Virus record (IMG/VR): IMGVR_UViG_3300035698_010376
Location: 1 to 22,706 of that record
Direction: 5' to 3' (one strand)
Origin: a virus
DNA length: 22,706 bases
The translations under genes were made by a program, and so were the position numbers. This document shows, piece after piece, positions 1,883-22,685 of this stretch; the stretch's first letter is position 1; the number at the start of each line of letters is the position of its first letter. Under the pieces are notes generated by a model. That model was not told where the DNA came from. It made no database searches and saw only the letters and a list, made by a program, of their open reading frames with translations.

Positions 1883-3416
1883 CGAAGAGTATTTCTTTGA
1901 CCACCTCTATGGTGAACTGGCTGGCGCGTCTGAAGAAGCCTACAAGAAGAAGGCGCAAATCCTACGTAAGCGCCTCACCAAATTTCAGCTAGATTTTATC
2001 AATGACCCTTGCCGCAAAAAGAGCGTCCTATGCCCACGCCGTGCCGGCAAATCTTTTTCCATTATCTACTACGCGCTTATCAGGGCCTTGGAAAAGCCTG
2101 GGGCCACCGTTTGCCTAGGAACGCTCACACGAACGTCTGCTCGCCGGATTATGTGGTCAGGAGAGGATGGCCTTGTTGCTCTGTGTAAACAACTTGAGCT
2201 CAAAGCGCATATCCACCACACCAACCTTGAGATTACATTAGACAATGGCTCACGCATTTGGCTCACTGGCTGCCAAACTGTTTCCGAGATTGAGAAAATT
2301 CGTGGACTGGCCTTCGACCTATTCCTGCTTGACGAGTGCAAGTCGTTTGCGCCCAAGACAATCAGCTACCTCATTCGTGAAGTAGTTCAGCCCACCCTCA
2401 ATGACCGAATGGGGACCATGGTACTTGCAGGTACACCAGGACACGTACTTGCTGGCGAGTTCTATCAGGCCACCAGTCCCGACATTCCCGCCAAGGGCAA
2501 TGAAGAGAAACCAGCGGTCAGGACCTACCGCAAGCGCGGTCTCTGGAAGAAGGGTAAGCCGTTTAGATGGTCGTTTCATACTTGGAGCGTCCAAGAGAAC
2601 ACTGAGATGCCTCACCTTTGGAGTGCGATGCTCGAAGATAAGAAGGCCTACGGTTGGGCCGACGACAATCCGATTTGGATACGTGAGTCCTTAGGTAGAT
2701 GGGTCGCTTCTGACGATTTGCGCATCTATCGGTTCGATGAAACCAGGAACACCTACTTCCCTGCCGAGAACAGCAATGAAGCACGCGGACTACCAGCTGA
2801 GCATGGTCCCTATCACTTCATGGCTGGCATGGACCTTGGCTTCGAGGATGATTTTGCGATTGTAGTGCTGGCCTACTCTGATTACGACGACAAACTGTAC
2901 GAAGTCGAAACCTATAAGTCTCCTCACCTCATCGTCAGCCAAATGGCCCGTGTCATGCGCAGCTTTGATGACAAATACGACTTAGAGCTAATCGTTGGTG
3001 ATACTGGTGGTCTTGGCAAGGCAATCATTGAAGAAATGAACGCGAAGCACGGCCTCAACATTATTGCGGCTGAGAAAACGAAAAAAAGAGACTATATTGA
3101 GCTGATGAATTCTGACCTTGTTGATGGACGCATCCTGCTCCGCCCAAACTCAGAGCTGGCTGAAGAAATGCAGTTTTTGATGTGGAAGGATGAGCGAAAA
3201 CTAGCTGAAGACCAAGGTTGCGCAAATCATGCGTGTGACGCCGCTCTGTACATCTGGCGGTTCTCTCAGCATTACTTTTTCAGAGACAGAACTCGCTCAT
3301 TGGCTCCTGGTTCAGCAGAGTATTTAGAAGCGCAACAAGACAAAGAGCTTCAAAGATTAGACGAAGAAGCGCTGGCCGGTGATGGCGGCAGTTGGCTTGA
3401 GCGAGTGTGTAGGTAA
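1875..3416 (+). CDS. terL: Terminase large subunit (packaging ATPase and nuclease)
   Basis: 513 residues, a usual length for TerL. The ATPase domain shows Walker A CPRRAGKS (53-60), Walker B FDLFLLDE with acidic residues D153 and E154 (147-154), and coupling motif LAGTPG (184-189). The RNase H-like nuclease domain has its expected acidic residues at D320 (AGMDLGF), D376 (VGDTGG) and D455 (NHACDAAL). The enzyme docks on the portal, pumps DNA into the prohead with ATP and cuts concatemers. The start is GTG at 1875, which overlaps the previous stop codon and keeps the operon coupled. The packaging mode (cos, pac or terminal repeats) cannot be told from the protein by eye. Confidence 0.96.
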   Translation: MINEEYFFDHLYGELAGASEEAYKKKAQILRKRLTKFQLDFINDPCRKKSVLCPRRAGKSFSIIYYALIRALEKPGATVCLGTLTRTSARRIMWSGEDGLVALCKQLELKAHIHHTNLEITLDNGSRIWLTGCQTVSEIEKIRGLAFDLFLLDECKSFAPKTISYLIREVVQPTLNDRMGTMVLAGTPGHVLAGEFYQATSPDIPAKGNEEKPAVRTYRKRGLWKKGKPFRWSFHTWSVQENTEMPHLWSAMLEDKKAYGWADDNPIWIRESLGRWVASDDLRIYRFDETRNTYFPAENSNEARGLPAEHGPYHFMAGMDLGFEDDFAIVVLAYSDYDDKLYEVETYKSPHLIVSQMARVMRSFDDKYDLELIVGDTGGLGKAIIEEMNAKHGLNIIAAEKTKKRDYIELMNSDLVDGRILLRPNSELAEEMQFLMWKDERKLAEDQGCANHACDAALYIWRFSQHYFFRDRTRSLAPGSAEYLEAQQDKELQRLDEEALAGDGGSWLERVCR

Positions 3417-3533
3417 ATGATCACCACTTGCAAAATGTCATTCGATGCCCGTATATTGGACGGGATGATAAACCCAGACATCAATGAGTTGATGACAGTC
3501 GCTGCAATCGCAGTGTCTTGTCTCCTTGTCTGA
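3417..3533 (+). CDS. Small ORF between large terminase and portal (38 aa)
   Basis: An ATG begins on the base after the large-terminase stop and runs 38 codons to a TGA at 3531-3533, overlapping the portal start by 8 bases. It therefore fills the only gap between these two genes exactly. The product starts MITTCKMSFDARILDG and ends in a short hydrophobic stretch (VAAIAVSCLLV). A weak AGGT precedes the start. It could be a real micro-protein, or it could serve only to couple translation to the portal gene, which starts with TTG and lacks a ribosome-binding site of its own. No family is recognised. Confidence 0.45.
   Translation: MITTCKMSFDARILDGMINPDINELMTVAAIAVSCLLV
3428..3457 (+). promoter_or_regulatory. 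Candidate sigma70-like promoter before the portal gene
   Basis: TTGCAA (3428-3433) and TATATT (3452-3457) are 18 bases apart, matching 4 of 6 and 5 of 6 consensus positions. The site lies in the terminase-portal interval and could give separate expression of the head genes. Such matches occur by chance, and the small ORF covers the same bases. Confidence 0.25.
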
Positions 3534-5340
3534 TTTCTGGTGGAACATACCCAAACCACACGCTGAGATTACTCGGTATGTGCAAGAGCTACGTCAAAGA
3601 CAGCTCGGGCTTGTTGAAACTCGCGACCGTTGCGAACGGCTCTATTCATTATCCTCTCAAAGAGACACCGCCGCAGAGCAAGCCCTATGGAGCGTTAACC
3701 ACAACCTGGTAAAGGCAGCAATTGATACCGCTTCGGCGATGATTGCCAAGTCACACGCCAAGCCTTCACTGATTTCAAGAGGCGGCGACTTCAGCACCAA
3801 ACGCACCGTTAAAACATTAGACCAGTTCCTTTCTGGTCTTTTTCGCTCTGAGTATGTCCACGACAAACAGGTCGATATGTTCTTCGATGCCTGCATCTAC
3901 GGCACTGGTTGCATGAAGATTGTAGCTAGCAGTGATGGGGTTGAGTTTGAGCGAGTACCTATCTCCGACATCGTAATAGATGAGCGCGAGTGCAAGGCCA
4001 GCCACAGAAACCTCCATCAACTTCACCAAGTGATGACGGTCGACAGAGAGCGCTTGGCCGCTGACTACCCAAACAAACGCAAAACCATCATGGGTGCCAC
4101 AGAAGCCCCAGAAGACTTGAACGACATGGAGACCGAGCGCAAGGTCGATATGGTCGAAGTCATCGAGTCTTTCTCGTTGCCAATGGGTAAGAGGGACAAG
4201 AAAGGCTACAAGCCTGGTCGTCATGTCATATCCGTGAGCTCCGGTATCCTCTTTGACGAAGAGTGGAATGACCCGTTCCCTTTTGTGTTTTTCCGTTGGT
4301 CAACGATGCCGCACGGTTTCTGGGGGCAAGGCATTGCTCGTGAGCTTGCTGGTCATCAGCTACGTATTGATAGACTCATCGACCACATTCACGAGATGCA
4401 AGACAAGGTCGCCTACCCGCGAATCTTCATCCCCCAATCCACAAACATTCAACCACAGCACATCAAAGAAGTTGGCGGCGTCAAAATGATTCCGATGAAG
4501 GGAACGCAACCTCCCATCTTCATGACCCCGGCTGCAGTGTCCCCGGAAATCTACCAAGCCTTTGACCAGCTATGGACATCAGGTTTTGAGCAGATTGGCA
4601 TTTCCCAGCTGTCAGCAACCTCCACTAAACCGGCAGGAATTGAGTCTGGCCGTGCGCTGCGTGAGCTCAACACAATTGAGAGTGGACGTTTCTCTCAGCA
4701 ATCCCGACGCTTTGAGTTAACCACCATTGAGCTGGCGGAGCGAACGCTTGAAGCAATGGAGCGACTTGATGGCTCAGGTGACGACATTGAAGTTACTTAC
4801 CTAGAATGGGAAGGTGCTAAGAAGATTGACTGGAAGACAGTTAAGACCAACCGCGAAAACTTTGTAATTCAGGTAGCCGCTTCTTCTATTGCGTCGATGA
4901 CACCATCAGGCCGAATCGAGACCGTCACTGATTGGGTTAACGCCCAAATGATTACCGACCCCAAGGTTGCGATGAAGCTTATCGACAACCCGGACCTGGA
5001 AGGTGAGTCTGAGCTTGAGACCGCTCACATCAAAAACGTAGACCGAACGATTGAACGTCTACTTGATTTAGAGCGACTCGCCCCTGACCCACTTCAAGAC
5101 TTAAAATTATTAGCGGCAAAAACGCAGGCCGCGTATCTCATGGCAACCGACGGAGGAGCCAAACCAGAGATATTAGCGAACTTGAGACGTTTTGTTGTGG
5201 CGACACAGCAAATGCTTCAACCGCCAATGCCACCGCCTCAGCCTGGGGCACCTCCTATGGATCAAGGAGCCGTACCACCTCAAGAAGTACCACCAGAGGC
5301 AGCAGTTCCACCGGAGATGGTAAATGGACCAACTAACTGA
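3526..5340 (+). CDS. Portal protein
   Basis: 604 residues, directly after the large terminase, and followed by scaffold and capsid genes. The central region, with ELAGHQLRIDRLIDHIHEM, ISQLSATSTKPAGIESGRALRELNTIESGRF (residues about 365-395) and long following helices, matches the clip/stem/wing organisation of podovirus-type portals as I know them. The dodecameric portal sits at one capsid vertex, seeds head assembly, docks the terminase and later binds the adaptor. The last 44 residues are Pro/Gln-rich and probably disordered. The likely start is TTG at 3526 (MSDFWWNIPKP), with no evident ribosome-binding site, so translation may be coupled to the small ORF that ends at 3533. The length is typical for podovirus portals. 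Confidence 0.9.
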   Translation: MSDFWWNIPKPHAEITRYVQELRQRQLGLVETRDRCERLYSLSSQRDTAAEQALWSVNHNLVKAAIDTASAMIAKSHAKPSLISRGGDFSTKRTVKTLDQFLSGLFRSEYVHDKQVDMFFDACIYGTGCMKIVASSDGVEFERVPISDIVIDERECKASHRNLHQLHQVMTVDRERLAADYPNKRKTIMGATEAPEDLNDMETERKVDMVEVIESFSLPMGKRDKKGYKPGRHVISVSSGILFDEEWNDPFPFVFFRWSTMPHGFWGQGIARELAGHQLRIDRLIDHIHEMQDKVAYPRIFIPQSTNIQPQHIKEVGGVKMIPMKGTQPPIFMTPAAVSPEIYQAFDQLWTSGFEQIGISQLSATSTKPAGIESGRALRELNTIESGRFSQQSRRFELTTIELAERTLEAMERLDGSGDDIEVTYLEWEGAKKIDWKTVKTNRENFVIQVAASSIASMTPSGRIETVTDWVNAQMITDPKVAMKLIDNPDLEGESELETAHIKNVDRTIERLLDLERLAPDPLQDLKLLAAKTQAAYLMATDGGAKPEILANLRRFVVATQQMLQPPMPPPQPGAPPMDQGAVPPQEVPPEAAVPPEMVNGPTN

Positions 5341-6286
5341 TAACGAAGAGTTCGCACCCGACACAGAAGTCGAAGAAGATTTTTTAAGCGACGACGAAAT
5401 AGTCGCACAAGCCACAGCTGCACTTGGCGGCGATGAAGACGAGGATCAAGAGGAATCACCTGTTGTTAAAACTCGCAAAGTAGAGCACGCTCCAGAACCT
5501 GAGCCGCGTCCCGATGACCACGCTGAGTTCAACGAGCGAGTTCGAGAAGAAGCACGACAACGTGCACTAATTGCTGAAGAACGACGAGGCCTTGAACGTA
5601 TTCAAGAGCAGACGCAGTCTCGTTCACAAGAGATTGACGCAATCGTCGAAGAGAACCAAAGGTACAAACAAGCCTTCCAAGGAGTTCAAGAGAACCCCTA
5701 TCAACTTTTTAAGTCGATGAACTTATCGCAAGGGGATTACACCAAACTTGCTGAAGACATCTACTACATGGCCAATCCAGAGGATGCTCCCAAGGACTAC
5801 GAGCATCGTGTTCGTGGCTCTGAGCGTGATGAATACATTCGTCACTTAGAGCGCTCTATGACTGAGAAGGAAGCCGCCACTATCGCTCGCATTGAGAAGA
5901 TGGAGCAGCGACTCTCTCATGACAAGATTGTTTCTGAAGTCGAGCATGCACTTCGAACAGTCCCAGAAGATTTAGAATTTGTTTCGCGTGAAGCGGAGCA
6001 AGGTTTTGGCGAAGTATCAGAGCAGCTGCTCGGTATTATCGCTCAAGCAAAAGACAACGGCACGTCTATTACAGCGTACGAAGCGGCCGAAATACTCAAT
6101 GAAGCAATGAGTGATGTTACTGAGCACATTAAAAATCAGCACCTAAGAGAACCATCAGCGCCGACAAGAGTTCGTGGCAAAAGCAAAACACTTTCCAACC
6201 ACAGGCTATCGCAGGCGCGTCCAGACCAAGACATTGATGAAATGGATGATGACGAGCTCGTTGCGCACATAGCCTCACAACTTTGA
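5324..6286 (+). CDS. Capsid scaffolding protein
   Basis: 320 residues, very acidic at the N-terminus (residues 1-45) and then mostly charged helix. Residues 65-120 and 165-205 look like coiled coils (RLEEAR-type repeats around RQRALIAEERRGLERIQEQ and HLERSMTEKEAATIARIEKM). Residues 124-148 hold the NPYQLFKSMNLSQGDYTKLAED segment. The C-terminus is basic and then acidic. Scaffolds of tailed phages have this composition and position between portal and major capsid protein. They guide prohead assembly and then leave. No protease motif is visible, so the scaffold may exit intact. The ATG overlaps the portal stop by 17 bases, with GGAG at about 9 bases before the start. Confidence 0.85.
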   Translation: MDQLTDNEEFAPDTEVEEDFLSDDEIVAQATAALGGDEDEDQEESPVVKTRKVEHAPEPEPRPDDHAEFNERVREEARQRALIAEERRGLERIQEQTQSRSQEIDAIVEENQRYKQAFQGVQENPYQLFKSMNLSQGDYTKLAEDIYYMANPEDAPKDYEHRVRGSERDEYIRHLERSMTEKEAATIARIEKMEQRLSHDKIVSEVEHALRTVPEDLEFVSREAEQGFGEVSEQLLGIIAQAKDNGTSITAYEAAEILNEAMSDVTEHIKNQHLREPSAPTRVRGKSKTLSNHRLSQARPDQDIDEMDDDELVAHIASQL

Positions 6287-7494: not shown

Positions 7495-7509
7495 GAAAGG
7501 TCCATCACT

Positions 7510-7860
7510 ATGATGAAATCAAAAATAAAAACCTTTGGCTTTAACAAGGTATCCCTCTCGGGACACTTTGATGCCTCAGGTTCGAGTGCACCGTCGGGGC
7601 TTAAGGCCCCTGGCGTTGCCAGCGCTGCCCGTTCCGGCACAGGCGTTTATGTGCTGACGCTGTTGGAAGATGTGACTGGGACTGATGTAGTCTTCGCGTC
7701 CGCCAGCACGAGCATTATCGGTACGGCTGCAAAGGTGACTGCTTATGACCTCACGGCAGGTACGGTAACAGTTACCACTGTAGGGGAAGACTTTGCCGTG
7801 GCTGACACCACTGGCATCGTCTACTTCTATCTTGAGCTTCAAGGCGGAGTTGACATCTAA
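7510..7860 (+). CDS. Small beta-rich head protein, possible decoration protein (116 aa)
   Basis: Follows the major capsid gene after 15 bases, with an AAAGG ribosome-binding site. After a short basic N-terminus (MMKSKIKTFGFNK), the protein is almost all Ala, Gly, Ser, Thr and Val beta-strand sequence (GVYVLTLLEDVTGTDVVFAS, VTAYDLTAGTVTVTTVGEDF). Small all-beta proteins in this position are often capsid decoration or cement proteins, which bind the expanded shell. No specific family is recognised, so decoration is inferred from size, composition and position. The two adjacent ATGs (7510, 7513) make the exact start uncertain by one residue. Confidence 0.75.
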   Translation: MMKSKIKTFGFNKVSLSGHFDASGSSAPSGLKAPGVASAARSGTGVYVLTLLEDVTGTDVVFASASTSIIGTAAKVTAYDLTAGTVTVTTVGEDFAVADTTGIVYFYLELQGGVDI

Positions 7861-7862
7861 CC

Positions 7863-8546
7863 ATGGCAGCTGAATCATATACGGCAGGCGAGTTGGTCAC
7901 TATGGCCAAGCGCCTTGCCGATATGGTGAACTCCAAGTTCATCAGCGATGAAGAGTGGCTGGACTACATCCGCAAGGGTGTGAAGAAGCTCTACCACTTA
8001 CTCATTCGCTCTGGGATGAGCTACAACGAGTCAACCTTCGCCATAACTGGTGACGGCTCGACCGTTGACCATTTAACGCCTGACGATTTCTTAGGAGTGA
8101 TTGTTGCTACGGAAACTCGTGGTAGCGACACCATTACTCTTAGGCAATTTCATGCACGAGACAGGGCACGGTATGAAAATCGCGTCAACGTCTACTCTCA
8201 TGTCTTCCGCGTTCGAACATCAGCTGGCGAGAGTTCAAAGATTAGAGTCCGTCCAACGCTGTCCGCTGCCGAGACGATAACAGTTGACTACATTCAATCA
8301 ACGGCCATCATCGACGAAACGACAGACGTGATTCTTTCTTGGGACGGGTGGGAGCGCATTGCTGTCCTTCACGCTGCGATACAAGCTGGCATCAAGGAAA
8401 ACTCTTCCGTTGATGCTCTCCGGCATGAGCTTGAGCAAGAGACACTACAAATCAGAGAAGCTGCAGACCTTCAATCGATGGAGCCATACGAGCTTACGCT
8501 TCGTGAATCTGGTGAGACTTTCTACGATTGGTGGAACGCATCATGA
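7863..8546 (+). CDS. Head-tail adaptor (connector) protein
   Basis: 227 residues. The N-terminal region ELVTMAKRLADMVNSKFISDEEWLDYIRKGVKKLYHLLI (residues 10-48) fits a phage connector pattern I recognise: a RADM-N-S-FV-D-E-(W/L)-x-x-YIN helix pair. A beta-rich middle follows, then C-terminal helices (DALRHELEQETLQIREAADL). Such proteins form the ring that seals the portal after packaging and joins it to the tail. The start at 7863 comes 2 bases after the preceding stop, with GGCGGAG about 14 bases upstream. Its place after the capsid genes and before fibre and nozzle genes supports the role. Confidence 0.75.
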   Translation: MAAESYTAGELVTMAKRLADMVNSKFISDEEWLDYIRKGVKKLYHLLIRSGMSYNESTFAITGDGSTVDHLTPDDFLGVIVATETRGSDTITLRQFHARDRARYENRVNVYSHVFRVRTSAGESSKIRVRPTLSAAETITVDYIQSTAIIDETTDVILSWDGWERIAVLHAAIQAGIKENSSVDALRHELEQETLQIREAADLQSMEPYELTLRESGETFYDWWNAS

Positions 8547-20400: not shown

Positions 20401-21185
20401 TGGCTCTACTTACTAACCTACAGACTGACTGCAATGCTGACCTAACCCCAGATTTAAACAATCTAGGTGGTGCGGTTGCGCTTGGCACCTACCCGGAAAC
20501 TGCAGAAGGCATGGCAGCGTACCCAGGCCTTGGGTCACCGTCGCATATCTGGACATTCGCAGAGACCTCCGGCGACACGCTTGACCAGGTCGGAAGTGCG
20601 GATCTGGCCGCGGTCGGAACAATCCACCGCGGTGATACAGCAGAGAGCGGCCGGCATGAATGGCGATTGGACTACTCTGGTAGAGCCGAAGCCACGGGGA
20701 TAAACAACCTTGAATATTCTGGGCAGTCATTTCGCATCGGAATGGTTGGCTCAATCCGATCAGTAGCCGCCTACATCTCTATGCTTAGTAATGCAGATGC
20801 GTCGCCATTCAAGGGTTACAGCATGTACATGACCAATGGTGGCTTCCTAGTTTGGAACGTAACTGATAGCGTCACAGGTACATCAAAATATGTAGCGCCA
20901 CACCACGGGGCCACTGGCGCCGATGACATCAACCTGTTAGCAGGCATCAACATGACAACGGGGTTTATTGAGATGCGTACAAGTACTACCACTAAACAGT
21001 CTATCCCTCACACGCACACAGCGTGGGCTACAACTCTAAAGCCGTTTGGATTTGGGAACATCGAGTTCCGTTACAGCTCAGGAATTTATCTCAGCTATGC
21101 CTGCATGTGGGTTGACTCCGAGGCTGAAGGTGATTTTGACGATGCGTTTGACGCATTCTCCTTGGCTTGCCCGGTGCCAACATGA
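20400..21185 (+). CDS. LamG/concanavalin-like protein, possible receptor-binding or appendage protein (261 aa)
   Basis: The start chosen is ATG 20400 (TAATG overlap). An in-frame upstream start at 20325 would overlap the preceding gene by 76 bases. Residues 49-75 (HIWTFAETSGDTLDQVGSADLAAVG) match the opening strand of LamG-like jelly rolls, which often read W-x-(L/F)-(D/A)-E-x-S-G-x-T-x-x-D-x-x-G. The remaining strands, including FRIGMVGSIRSVAAYISML and LLAGINMTTGFIEMRTSTTT, fit the same fold. Such modules bind carbohydrate or protein. In a phage structural cluster this could be a receptor-binding or head-surface protein. The exact place in the virion is not shown by sequence. Confidence 0.72.
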   Translation: MALLTNLQTDCNADLTPDLNNLGGAVALGTYPETAEGMAAYPGLGSPSHIWTFAETSGDTLDQVGSADLAAVGTIHRGDTAESGRHEWRLDYSGRAEATGINNLEYSGQSFRIGMVGSIRSVAAYISMLSNADASPFKGYSMYMTNGGFLVWNVTDSVTGTSKYVAPHHGATGADDINLLAGINMTTGFIEMRTSTTTKQSIPHTHTAWATTLKPFGFGNIEFRYSSGIYLSYACMWVDSEAEGDFDDAFDAFSLACPVPT

Positions 21186-21493
21186 GCAAGAAGCTGACAG
21201 TTGCCAGACAGAAGAAACTTGTCGCCGAAGCAAAAAAGAAAGTCAACGCACGCAAAGTTGAAATGAAAGCAGCGCAATGGAAGGTTGATGACTCTGCGCT
21301 TGATGAGGGTAACCCGTTCTGGGCAAGTCTCAAGGCTGACCTTGGCATTGACGCAGTGTCTATCAATAGCGCACGCGATGGAGAAAAACGCATTGGCGTA
21401 GTTGCTGACAAATCGGGGCAAGTCATTGAGATCGAAATGAACGTCGACGACGACGGTAACGTGTCCGGCACAATCACAAGGACCGACACGTGA
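21182..21493 (+). CDS. Small Lys-rich hypothetical protein (103 aa)
   Basis: ATG 21182 forms an ATGA overlap with the LamG-like gene; no strong ribosome-binding site is visible, so coupling is likely. Residues 1-35 are a basic helix (SKKLTVARQKKLVAEAKKK). Residues 45-103 are mixed with a beta C-terminus (GEKRIGVVADKSGQVIEIEM ... GNVSGTITRTDT). No family is recognised. It lies at the junction between structural and lysis genes, and its stop overlaps the next GTG by 4 bases. Confidence 0.65.
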   Translation: MSKKLTVARQKKLVAEAKKKVNARKVEMKAAQWKVDDSALDEGNPFWASLKADLGIDAVSINSARDGEKRIGVVADKSGQVIEIEMNVDDDGNVSGTITRTDT

Positions 21494-21936
21494 GCGACTT
21501 CCTTGAGGACGAAAAAACGATGGCGCGTATGCCAACCAATACTGGTCAGAATCAGATCATGATTGATAACACACGTGACCGTTTAGCCGAAGTAATTGGC
21601 GAGGCTCGCACGATAGCAAACGAGTGCAAGCATCTGAACATCGCCGTCGCTGAACTCAAGGAATCACGCAAGGGGCAAGGAGCGAGGCTTGGCACTGTAG
21701 AGAAAAACCTTGCCGCGGAAATTGCTAGGGCCGAACAACTGATGGCAACGCAGATTGCACGAGTAGAGACTATACTCGCATCGCAAATTGCACGAGTAGA
21801 ATCAATGCTAGCGACTGCGATGGTCGACATAAAAGAGAACACAAAGCTCAGCAATAAGGTCTGGGGAATTATCACAGTGCTTGTATTCGGTGGCGGCGCT
21901 GCCGGGGCTACAGCAATGAAACTAATTGGAGGATAG
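21490..21936 (+). CDS. Membrane-anchored coiled-coil protein, XhlA-like, probable lysis accessory (148 aa)
   Basis: GTG start at 21490 with a GTGA overlap. Residues 20-118 are helical and include four 11-residue repeats (75-118: AAEIARAEQLM, ATQIARVETIL, ASQIARVESML, then a degenerate unit). Residues 124-142 (VWGIITVLVFGGGAAGATA) form a single C-terminal membrane helix. The layout of a soluble coiled coil followed by one transmembrane segment, next to a holin, recalls XhlA-type haemolysin/holin-associated proteins. Spanin-like or other membrane roles are possible. No signal peptide or lipobox is seen. Confidence 0.75.
   Translation: MSDFLEDEKTMARMPTNTGQNQIMIDNTRDRLAEVIGEARTIANECKHLNIAVAELKESRKGQGARLGTVEKNLAAEIARAEQLMATQIARVETILASQIARVESMLATAMVDIKENTKLSNKVWGIITVLVFGGGAAGATAMKLIGG
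21712..21843 (+). repeat. 33-bp (11-residue, hendecad) repeat array, four units
   Basis: Four in-frame 33-base units encode AAEIARAEQLM, ATQIARVETIL, ASQIARVESML and a diverged ATAMVDIKENT. The two central units share long stretches of identical DNA, with ATTGCACGAGTAGA starting at 21752 and again at 21785. Eleven-residue periodicity with hydrophobic residues at repeated positions indicates a right-handed, hendecad-type coiled coil. Confidence 0.85.
21928..21933 (+). promoter_or_regulatory. Strong ribosome-binding site of the holin
   Basis: GGAGGA lies 7 bases before ATG 21941, inside the end of the previous gene. It is the strongest such site in the lysis region and decides the holin start, ruling out the longer in-frame upstream reading from 21926. 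Confidence 0.7.
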
Positions 21937-21940
21937 AAAT

Positions 21941-22177
21941 ATGAAATCAGGAATGAAGACATCGGAATTTGTGCTAACACTGCTAGCAATGGTTGGCGGC
22001 ATACTTGTGTACATCCTTACTAACGCCTCGCCGGAGTCAAAATGGATTGGACACCTAGCCATGGTTATGGGGTTCCTTCCTGCGCCTGTATATGTTGCTG
22101 GTCGTAGTGGGCTAAAAAAAGAGACCATCAAAGCGGAGGCCCTCAAAGCAGCCGTTTCAAAGCCACCCGCGGAGTAG
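21941..22177 (+). CDS. Holin, two transmembrane segments (class II-like), 78 aa
   Basis: The start MKSGMKTSEF is of the type seen in small phage holins (MKxGxKTSEF). Hydrophobic segments lie at residues 10-26 (FVLTLLAMVGGILVYIL) and 37-53 (GHLAMVMGFLPAPVYVA), followed by a basic tail (GRSGLKKETIK) that should face the cytoplasm. Holins accumulate in the inner membrane and open it at a set time for lysis. Met5 gives a possible second start, but it lacks its own spacing from the ribosome-binding site. The codons for Leu58-Lys59-Lys60 form a perfect A AAA AAA G heptamer (22114-22121), at which a -1 shift would lead into the following open frame. Confidence 0.85.
   Translation: MKSGMKTSEFVLTLLAMVGGILVYILTNASPESKWIGHLAMVMGFLPAPVYVAGRSGLKKETIKAEALKAAVSKPPAE
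22114..22120 (+). promoter_or_regulatory. Candidate -1 ribosomal slippery heptamer
   Basis: The bases A AAA AAA are in the X XXY YYZ register relative to the holin frame (CTA AAA AAA GAG). The -1 frame opens at 22108, just before the site, and remains open to 22452. A shift would make a protein of about 171 residues joining the holin to the small beta-rich ORF. I did not identify a downstream stimulatory hairpin by eye. The alternatives are chance or a homopolymer length error. Confidence 0.35.
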
Positions 22178-22254
22178 TCGAGCCCAAGCCTATCCCGCGG
22201 CTTATCGATACGGCTGCCGAAACTGCAATCGCAAAACTAGATGCAACTGAGAAA

Positions 22255-22452
22255 ATGGAAATTGGATCAGGACTACTCGATGTTTTTGGATTTGCTAACT
22301 ATGGCCCTACCGATAATTTGCGTTTGGGTATTGGCGTCGACGCACAGGCGAGACTCACAGAAAACGTCGCGGCGTTCCTCCAAGCGAAAGCCTGGTACGA
22401 GGCAAGCGACTGGCAAGCCGAAGCACTAGCAGGAATGAGGATACGCTGGTGA
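22255..22452 (+). CDS. Small beta-rich ORF after the holin (65 aa; start uncertain)
   Basis: The first start codon of any common type in this frame is ATG 22255, preceded only by a weak TGAGAA. The frame is open back to 22108, without ATG, GTG or TTG, and its translation (PKPIPRLIDTAAETAIAKLDA before the ATG) looks protein-like. The product has alternating strand-like sequence (NLRLGIGVDAQARL, AAFLQAKAWYE, AEALAGMRIRW) ending in Trp. It may be made from ATG 22255, from a rare start, or as an extension of the holin by -1 frameshift. The stop overlaps the next GTG by 4 bases (GTGA), which favours it being translated. Function unknown. Confidence 0.55.
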   Translation: MEIGSGLLDVFGFANYGPTDNLRLGIGVDAQARLTENVAAFLQAKAWYEASDWQAEALAGMRIRW

Positions 22453-22685
22453 AATTCGCTGTAGCATTCAAGAGAATCGAGCCGGTTGCAATCTTGCGAG
22501 TACCAGACGAAAGCGAAATGATGGAATTCGAAGAGGGCACAACTGATACAGAACTGGCCCCTATCCGTGCTTTGAATGAAATGAAAAAAGAATTACGCCG
22601 AGCGTATGCGTTGGTTACTGCCCTAGCCCTGGCCAATCTGGTTGGTGCAGCAGTAATCATTGCGACGCTGTGGTGGGGAAGTTGA
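22449..22685 (+). CDS. C-terminally anchored small membrane protein (78 aa)
   Basis: GTG start at 22449 in a GTGA overlap with the previous gene. The start MKFAVAFKRIEPVAILRVPD is followed by an acidic region (ESEMMEFEEGTTDTEL) and a basic helix (MKKELRRAY). Residues 53-75 (ALVTALALANLVGAAVIIATLWW) form one transmembrane segment at the very C-terminus. Its place after the holin suggests a lysis or membrane accessory role, but no family is recognised. Confidence 0.65.
   Translation: MKFAVAFKRIEPVAILRVPDESEMMEFEEGTTDTELAPIRALNEMKKELRRAYALVTALALANLVGAAVIIATLWWGS

Follow-up and report, generated by a model that had tools for sequence, protein, structure and literature searches.

In tailed phages, most documented cases of programmed ribosomal frameshifting concern capsid and tail-chaperone genes (PMC9965538, PMC4283147, PMC3556154, PMC3091744), and the tail tube of SPP1 is a further case (PMC6316719). 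The capsid gene of Kuravirus has a GGGAAAG slip site near its stop codon (PMC9965538), a stem-loop is present in the T7-type frameshift (PMC4283147), and the tail-assembly chaperones use frameshifting of the lambda G/GT type (PMC3556154, PMC3091744). Holins that occur in two forms are known from lambda (S105/S107-type) and from SPP1 (24.1/24.1* and 26/26*), where the forms come from dual starts (PMC6316719). No frameshift-extended or recoded holin is reported in the open literature searched.

The DNA analysed here, called the window, is the whole 22,706-nucleotide stretch of IMG/VR record IMGVR_UViG_3300035698_010376, and it contains a putative holin gene that is probably extended by a -1 frameshift into a downstream domain. 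The zero-frame ORF (21941–22177, plus strand) is preceded by the Shine-Dalgarno sequence GGAGG and encodes 78 residues with two transmembrane-like segments (residues 10–28 and 36–54). The name holin is based on these segments and on the position in the lysis cassette, the match to the holin profile phrog_785 being weak (E 0.13); the protein shows the class II traits of small size, two transmembrane segments, a basic C-terminus and location in a lysis cassette, and the basic C-terminus suggests that this end is cytoplasmic. The gene upstream (21490–21936, plus strand) encodes a coiled-coil-like protein of 148 residues with one C-terminal transmembrane segment (residues 124–142), which is XhlA-like in organisation, not by a family match, and the next gene downstream (22449–22685, plus strand) encodes 78 residues, also with one C-terminal transmembrane segment. 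In the XhlA/XhlB pairs of PBSX and SPP1 (gp24.1/gp26; PMC6316719) a protein with a C-terminal transmembrane segment likewise adjoins a two-segment holin, but the likeness to the window is one of organisation alone, with no sequence or profile match found.

The holin ORF contains CTA AAA AAA GAG, and direct reading of the sequence confirms that A AAA AAA at 22114–22120 (plus strand), followed by G, stands in the zero-frame slip register and is thus a candidate -1 slip site. The -1 frame into which slipped ribosomes would pass is free of stops from 22108 to 22452 (plus strand), as claimed in the initial annotation; it is closed upstream by TAG at 22105–22107, has its first ATG, GTG or TTG at 22255, and ends in TGG TGA, overlapping the GTG of the next gene. 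The annotation had cautioned that such an arrangement could arise by chance. Other A/T-type X XXY YYZ heptamers do occur in register, 18 in the window with this one included, but none of the others opens onto a -1 frame as long as the one following 22114–22120, which continues for 110 codons against 57 for the next longest, and the combination of heptamer and long open frame is more than chance. All X XXY YYZ types together account for 0.33% of window codons, and over the 23 codons available here one would expect 0.016 occurrences of A7 or A6G in register.

In the scheme that we infer, for the occurrence of the shift and for its site as well as for the role of the long form, most ribosomes would terminate at the TAG ending at 22177 and release the 78-residue holin, and a fraction would shift into the -1 frame, most probably at A AAA AAA G (heptamer 22114–22120), with assistance from RNA structure downstream. 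Slipped ribosomes would read on to 22452 and make a product of about 170 residues, consisting of the holin and a C-terminal beta domain. We give this reading, -1 programmed frameshifting with the A-run as the site, an even chance of being correct. The scheme shares with T7 gene 10A/10B, the Kuravirus capsid and the lambda G/GT chaperones one start, two products with a common N-terminus and an X XXY YYZ heptamer, and in T7 and Kuravirus the heptamer is near the gene end as well. It also resembles the dual-start holins of lambda and SPP1 in giving two forms from one gene; those forms differ at the N-terminus, whereas the forms proposed here would differ by an extra domain at the C-terminus.

Coding potential was scored in bits per codon from the codon usage learned from the window's other genes. 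The zero frame scores +0.20 over 22121–22174, so that the holin retains a coding-like signal as far as its TAG. The -1 frame scores -0.09 over 22120–22176, as non-coding sequence does, and +0.14 over 22177–22254, ahead of the ATG, a coding-like value reached by 0% of the +1 and 1.5% of the -1 control windows. From this codon-usage signal, translation of the -1 frame probably starts upstream of ATG 22255. The signal changes frame near the TAG rather than at the A-run, which neither excludes nor supports the A-run as the site, since the overlap of a frameshift gene is expected to resemble the zero frame. The window holin is overlapped at the heptamer by an open, coding -1 frame that lacks a good start of its own. 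The stretch 22178–22254 had been described as the only non-overlapping part of an otherwise packed cluster; this holds within the packed run 21167–22685, and there are gaps elsewhere in the window, such as 3417–3525.

A pattern for the KT[ST]EF holin motif led to locus L014, part of the 42 kb IMG/VR contig 3300009537_000050 (G003), where a homologous holin is followed, again in the -1 frame, by a domain homologous to that of the window. Beyond these two elements no further homology between G003 and the window phage is detectable. The L014 holin has one strong transmembrane segment only, and on the gene strand it ends GAA AAC CCT TAG. Both phages have a heptamer of the X XXY YYZ type in zero-frame register, A AAA AAA in the window and A AAC CCT in L014. 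A TGA closes the L014 -1 frame immediately upstream of the heptamer, and the frame can therefore be entered only there. Heptamers in register make up 0.31% of codons in this phage, which gives a chance of about 0.006 for A AAC CCT at the junction (one or two possible positions). The heptamer is followed by a spacer of 6 nt (UAGAAG, including the stop UAG) and then by a stem at 2949–3040 with 10 bp and further stems (MFE -57 kcal/mol, z -5.6 to -7.2); no other 90-nt window of the locus is as stable. By its sequence the L014 junction looks as expected of a -1 frameshift cassette, of a textbook kind, and frameshifting is likely there, a statement that we make with higher confidence than for the window. 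Elsewhere in L014, the region where the amidase gene ends is predicted to be very strongly structured at the RNA level (oriented positions 3821–3950, original strand about 4367–4496; z down to -7.65), and this structure may be a terminator separating convergent genes.

The -1 domains of the two phages are related at the protein level (tblastn 9.6e-6 over residues 15–91 of 22177–22452; Smith-Waterman score 93, where the best of 5000 shuffles reached 56). The conserved C-terminal domain (...ETAIAKLDATEKMEIGSG...AGMRIRW; 22219–22449, plus strand) begins 12 codons before ATG 22255, and the segment ahead of the ATG is conserved by itself, with ETAIAKLDATE in the window and EGVYAKLDNAE in L014 (p about 0.003–0.01). 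The suggestion that 22178–22254 translates to plausible protein is thereby borne out, by coding-like codon usage as well as by homology. Of the wider stretch 22120–22254, the -1 frame is conserved just before the ATG, but over 22120–22176 only the zero frame is, the holin tail KKETIKAEALKAAVSKPPA being homologous to the L014 tail KVADIKGKAIALAAKNSPA (p 0.03) and the -1 translation of these bases showing no such homology. The heptamer itself is not invariant, as A7 is missing from L014; slip-site conservation comes down to two members, each with an in-register heptamer, differing in sequence and position. The presence of this layout in two unrelated phages, each with such a heptamer and strong local RNA structure, makes recoding likely. 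The fusion of holin and downstream domain proposed in the initial annotation is supported by an unrelated phage with the same layout, a heptamer, a 6-nt spacer and a strong stem, and by coding signal and homology ahead of the ATG; the A-run as the place of the shift stands as plausible only.

Without a frameshift, ribosomes coupled from the holin would initiate at ATG 22255 or at a rare start codon and make the domain as a small protein in its own right, and the A-run would be incidental. An in-frame ATG is available for this in the window (22255–22257, plus strand), in L014 an in-frame TTG with AAGGGG upstream lies just past the holin stop as the only nearby alternative start, and other members of the holin family have separate genes next. 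The window ATG has a poor Shine-Dalgarno context, however, both coding signal and homology reach upstream of it, the L014 TTG and part of its Shine-Dalgarno sequence are inside the strong stem, and it would be strange for a domain resembling an outer-membrane anchor to exist as a free protein with no signal sequence. We consider such a separate protein rather unlikely.

Stimulatory RNA structures are common at -1 sites, though not obligatory, and usually lie 5–9 nt from the heptamer. Downstream of the A-run, a strong stem (GCAGCCGU/ACGGCUGC, with inner stems) is predicted at 22148–22217 (plus strand), with z -4.7, rank 3 of 1508 windows by z over the 22.7 kb, and pair probabilities in a 230 nt context of 0.92–0.98 at the ends and 1.0 in the middle. 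It begins 27 nt past the A7, or 12 nt when the weak extension at 22133 is included, a greater distance than usual. A nearer hairpin at 22131–22157 was rejected as the stimulator (z -0.87, pair probability 0.0 in context), the A7 has no clear Shine-Dalgarno-like stimulator upstream, and no known RNA family was found at the window junction. A_AAA_AAA is reported to shift far less readily than A_AAA_AAG in E. coli (PMC5009743). The A-run is no more than plausible as the site since it is absent from the homologue, the stem is 27 nt away, and the -1 frame over 22120–22176 is neither coding-like nor conserved.

The stem encloses the holin stop (TAG, 22175–22177, plus strand), and its position, together with the homology of the zero-frame tails, leaves room for a change of frame at the stop or for a missing base. 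In the first case ribosomes would hop from GAG 22172–22174, directly before the TAG, over UAGUC to GAG 22180–22182, which follows in the -1 frame, or would slip in some other way close to the stop; a stop inside a hairpin is reminiscent of T4 gene 60. The switch of coding signal at the TAG and the p 0.03 alignment of the zero-frame tails fit this, and in L014 the shift must happen at the stop, but the stop has no canonical heptamer and a matching GAG among the first three codons has a chance of about 12%. A change of frame at the stop appears quite unlikely to us.

In the second case the holin and the domain would form one plain fused gene, and somewhere between 22108 and 22177 either the assembly would lack a base or the gene would have been split by a recent mutation. 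As in a split gene, a coding-like signal is seen both in the zero frame ahead of the TAG and in the -1 frame past it, and a distant relative, G002, has its holin and a further domain in one ORF of 194 residues. Against this, the holin and domain of L014 are likewise offset by -1, with heptamer and stem placed precisely where the two meet, and none of the other packed genes of the window was seen to be broken. The same layout and textbook slip signal in an otherwise unrelated phage argue that the window junction is probably real and no sequencing artefact, and a plain fused gene is in our view improbable.

With -1 frameshifting as the preferred reading, the nature of the appended domain bears on its function. 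The initial annotation called it beta-rich, which the AF2 model of the window domain leaves uninformative (pLDDT 42), and the L014 homologue is predicted as four antiparallel beta strands (pLDDT 60.6, strands mostly about 58–75). The best Foldseek match of the L014 model in the PDB is the trimeric-autotransporter anchor of Hia (probability 1.00, TM 0.57, E 0.06), with further matches to the YadA anchor and EspP barrel strands, and in BFVD to phage YadA-anchor-like and cyanophage outer-membrane-like proteins. VIA-align of the model with Hia and AtaA gave Z 5.1–5.2, rmsd 2.0–2.1 and 20–21% identity with the C-termini aligned; methyltransferases had the top score (Z 6.4, 3–8% identity) and were set aside as a common sheet arrangement. 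Like the anchors of Hia, YadA and AtaA, the predicted domain has four antiparallel strands and an aromatic last residue, but it differs from them in having no Pfam match, passenger or signal, and a Foldseek E of 0.06 and a Z of about 5 are below the level of kinship; the resemblance to trimeric-autotransporter outer-membrane anchors is a weak match. A Pfam search with the -1 domain (E up to 10, YadA anchor family included) listed no match, the speed filters dropping most weak ones, and PDB sequence searches returned chance matches only. Both domains terminate in AGxRxRW, which we take to resemble the aromatic C-terminal signal of outer-membrane proteins. No signal sequence or transmembrane segment is predicted in the -1 domain, which fits delivery as a fusion.

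As its likely role, the long form would act in lysis as a second component, physically joined to the holin and bearing an outer-membrane-anchor-like domain. Should the anchor reading be right, it would share with the unimolecular spanins (T1 gp11 type) a single protein linking both membranes, but the window product has no lipobox, and a holin topology with the C-terminus inside would leave the domain in the cytoplasm. That frameshifting in at least two unrelated phage lineages yields, from the start of the hole-forming holin and in addition to it, a holin fusion linking inner and outer membrane, which sets lysis timing or acts as a spanin, we regard as an unlikely extension. More generally, a holin produced as a short and an extended form in constant proportion would offer a new means of setting lysis timing or of coupling disruption of the inner with that of the outer membrane, and the extended product would escape gene callers. 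Compared with the capsid and tail-chaperone cases, the recoded gene would here be a holin, with different heptamers and homologous products in two unrelated phages.

Only two genomes carry both the holin and the -1 domain. Direct searches of IMG/VR (short patterns) and of 50,697 phage records gave no match to either, and a profile search with the -1 domain in nearly 800 genomes and records returned G003 alone, a result of little weight. The window phage is an orphan, its portal and capsid having no tblastn match in the 50,697 phage records and its terminase at most about 24–33% identity to them; two distant relatives, G001 and G002, were reached solely through capsid and portal. Window holin homologues are found in L014 and G002, and holin relatives adjoin an amidase or an M23 endolysin. 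In G002 the homologue (E 5e-4) is the N-terminus of the 194-residue ORF, located at L009:5640–6224 (IMGVR_UViG_3300005467_000006), which runs into a second hydrophobic, lipobox-like segment (MLLVIAMVGVMIACGAS) immediately upstream of a PG-binding/M23 endolysin. In the bacterial contigs L018, L022, L027, L028 and L031 holins of the KTTEFW family are followed, by reading, by lipoprotein-like ORFs, some of which overlap the holin end, which suggests a holin/spanin-like gene pair. Elsewhere in the window, very strong RNA structure is predicted near the capsid-neck genes at 7500–8160 and 5971–6060 (z down to -6.2), and an ORF at 1051–1569, upstream of the terminase, reads as GNAT-acetyltransferase-like, with a similar-looking ORF in the same place in a relative (L002, 4017–4421).
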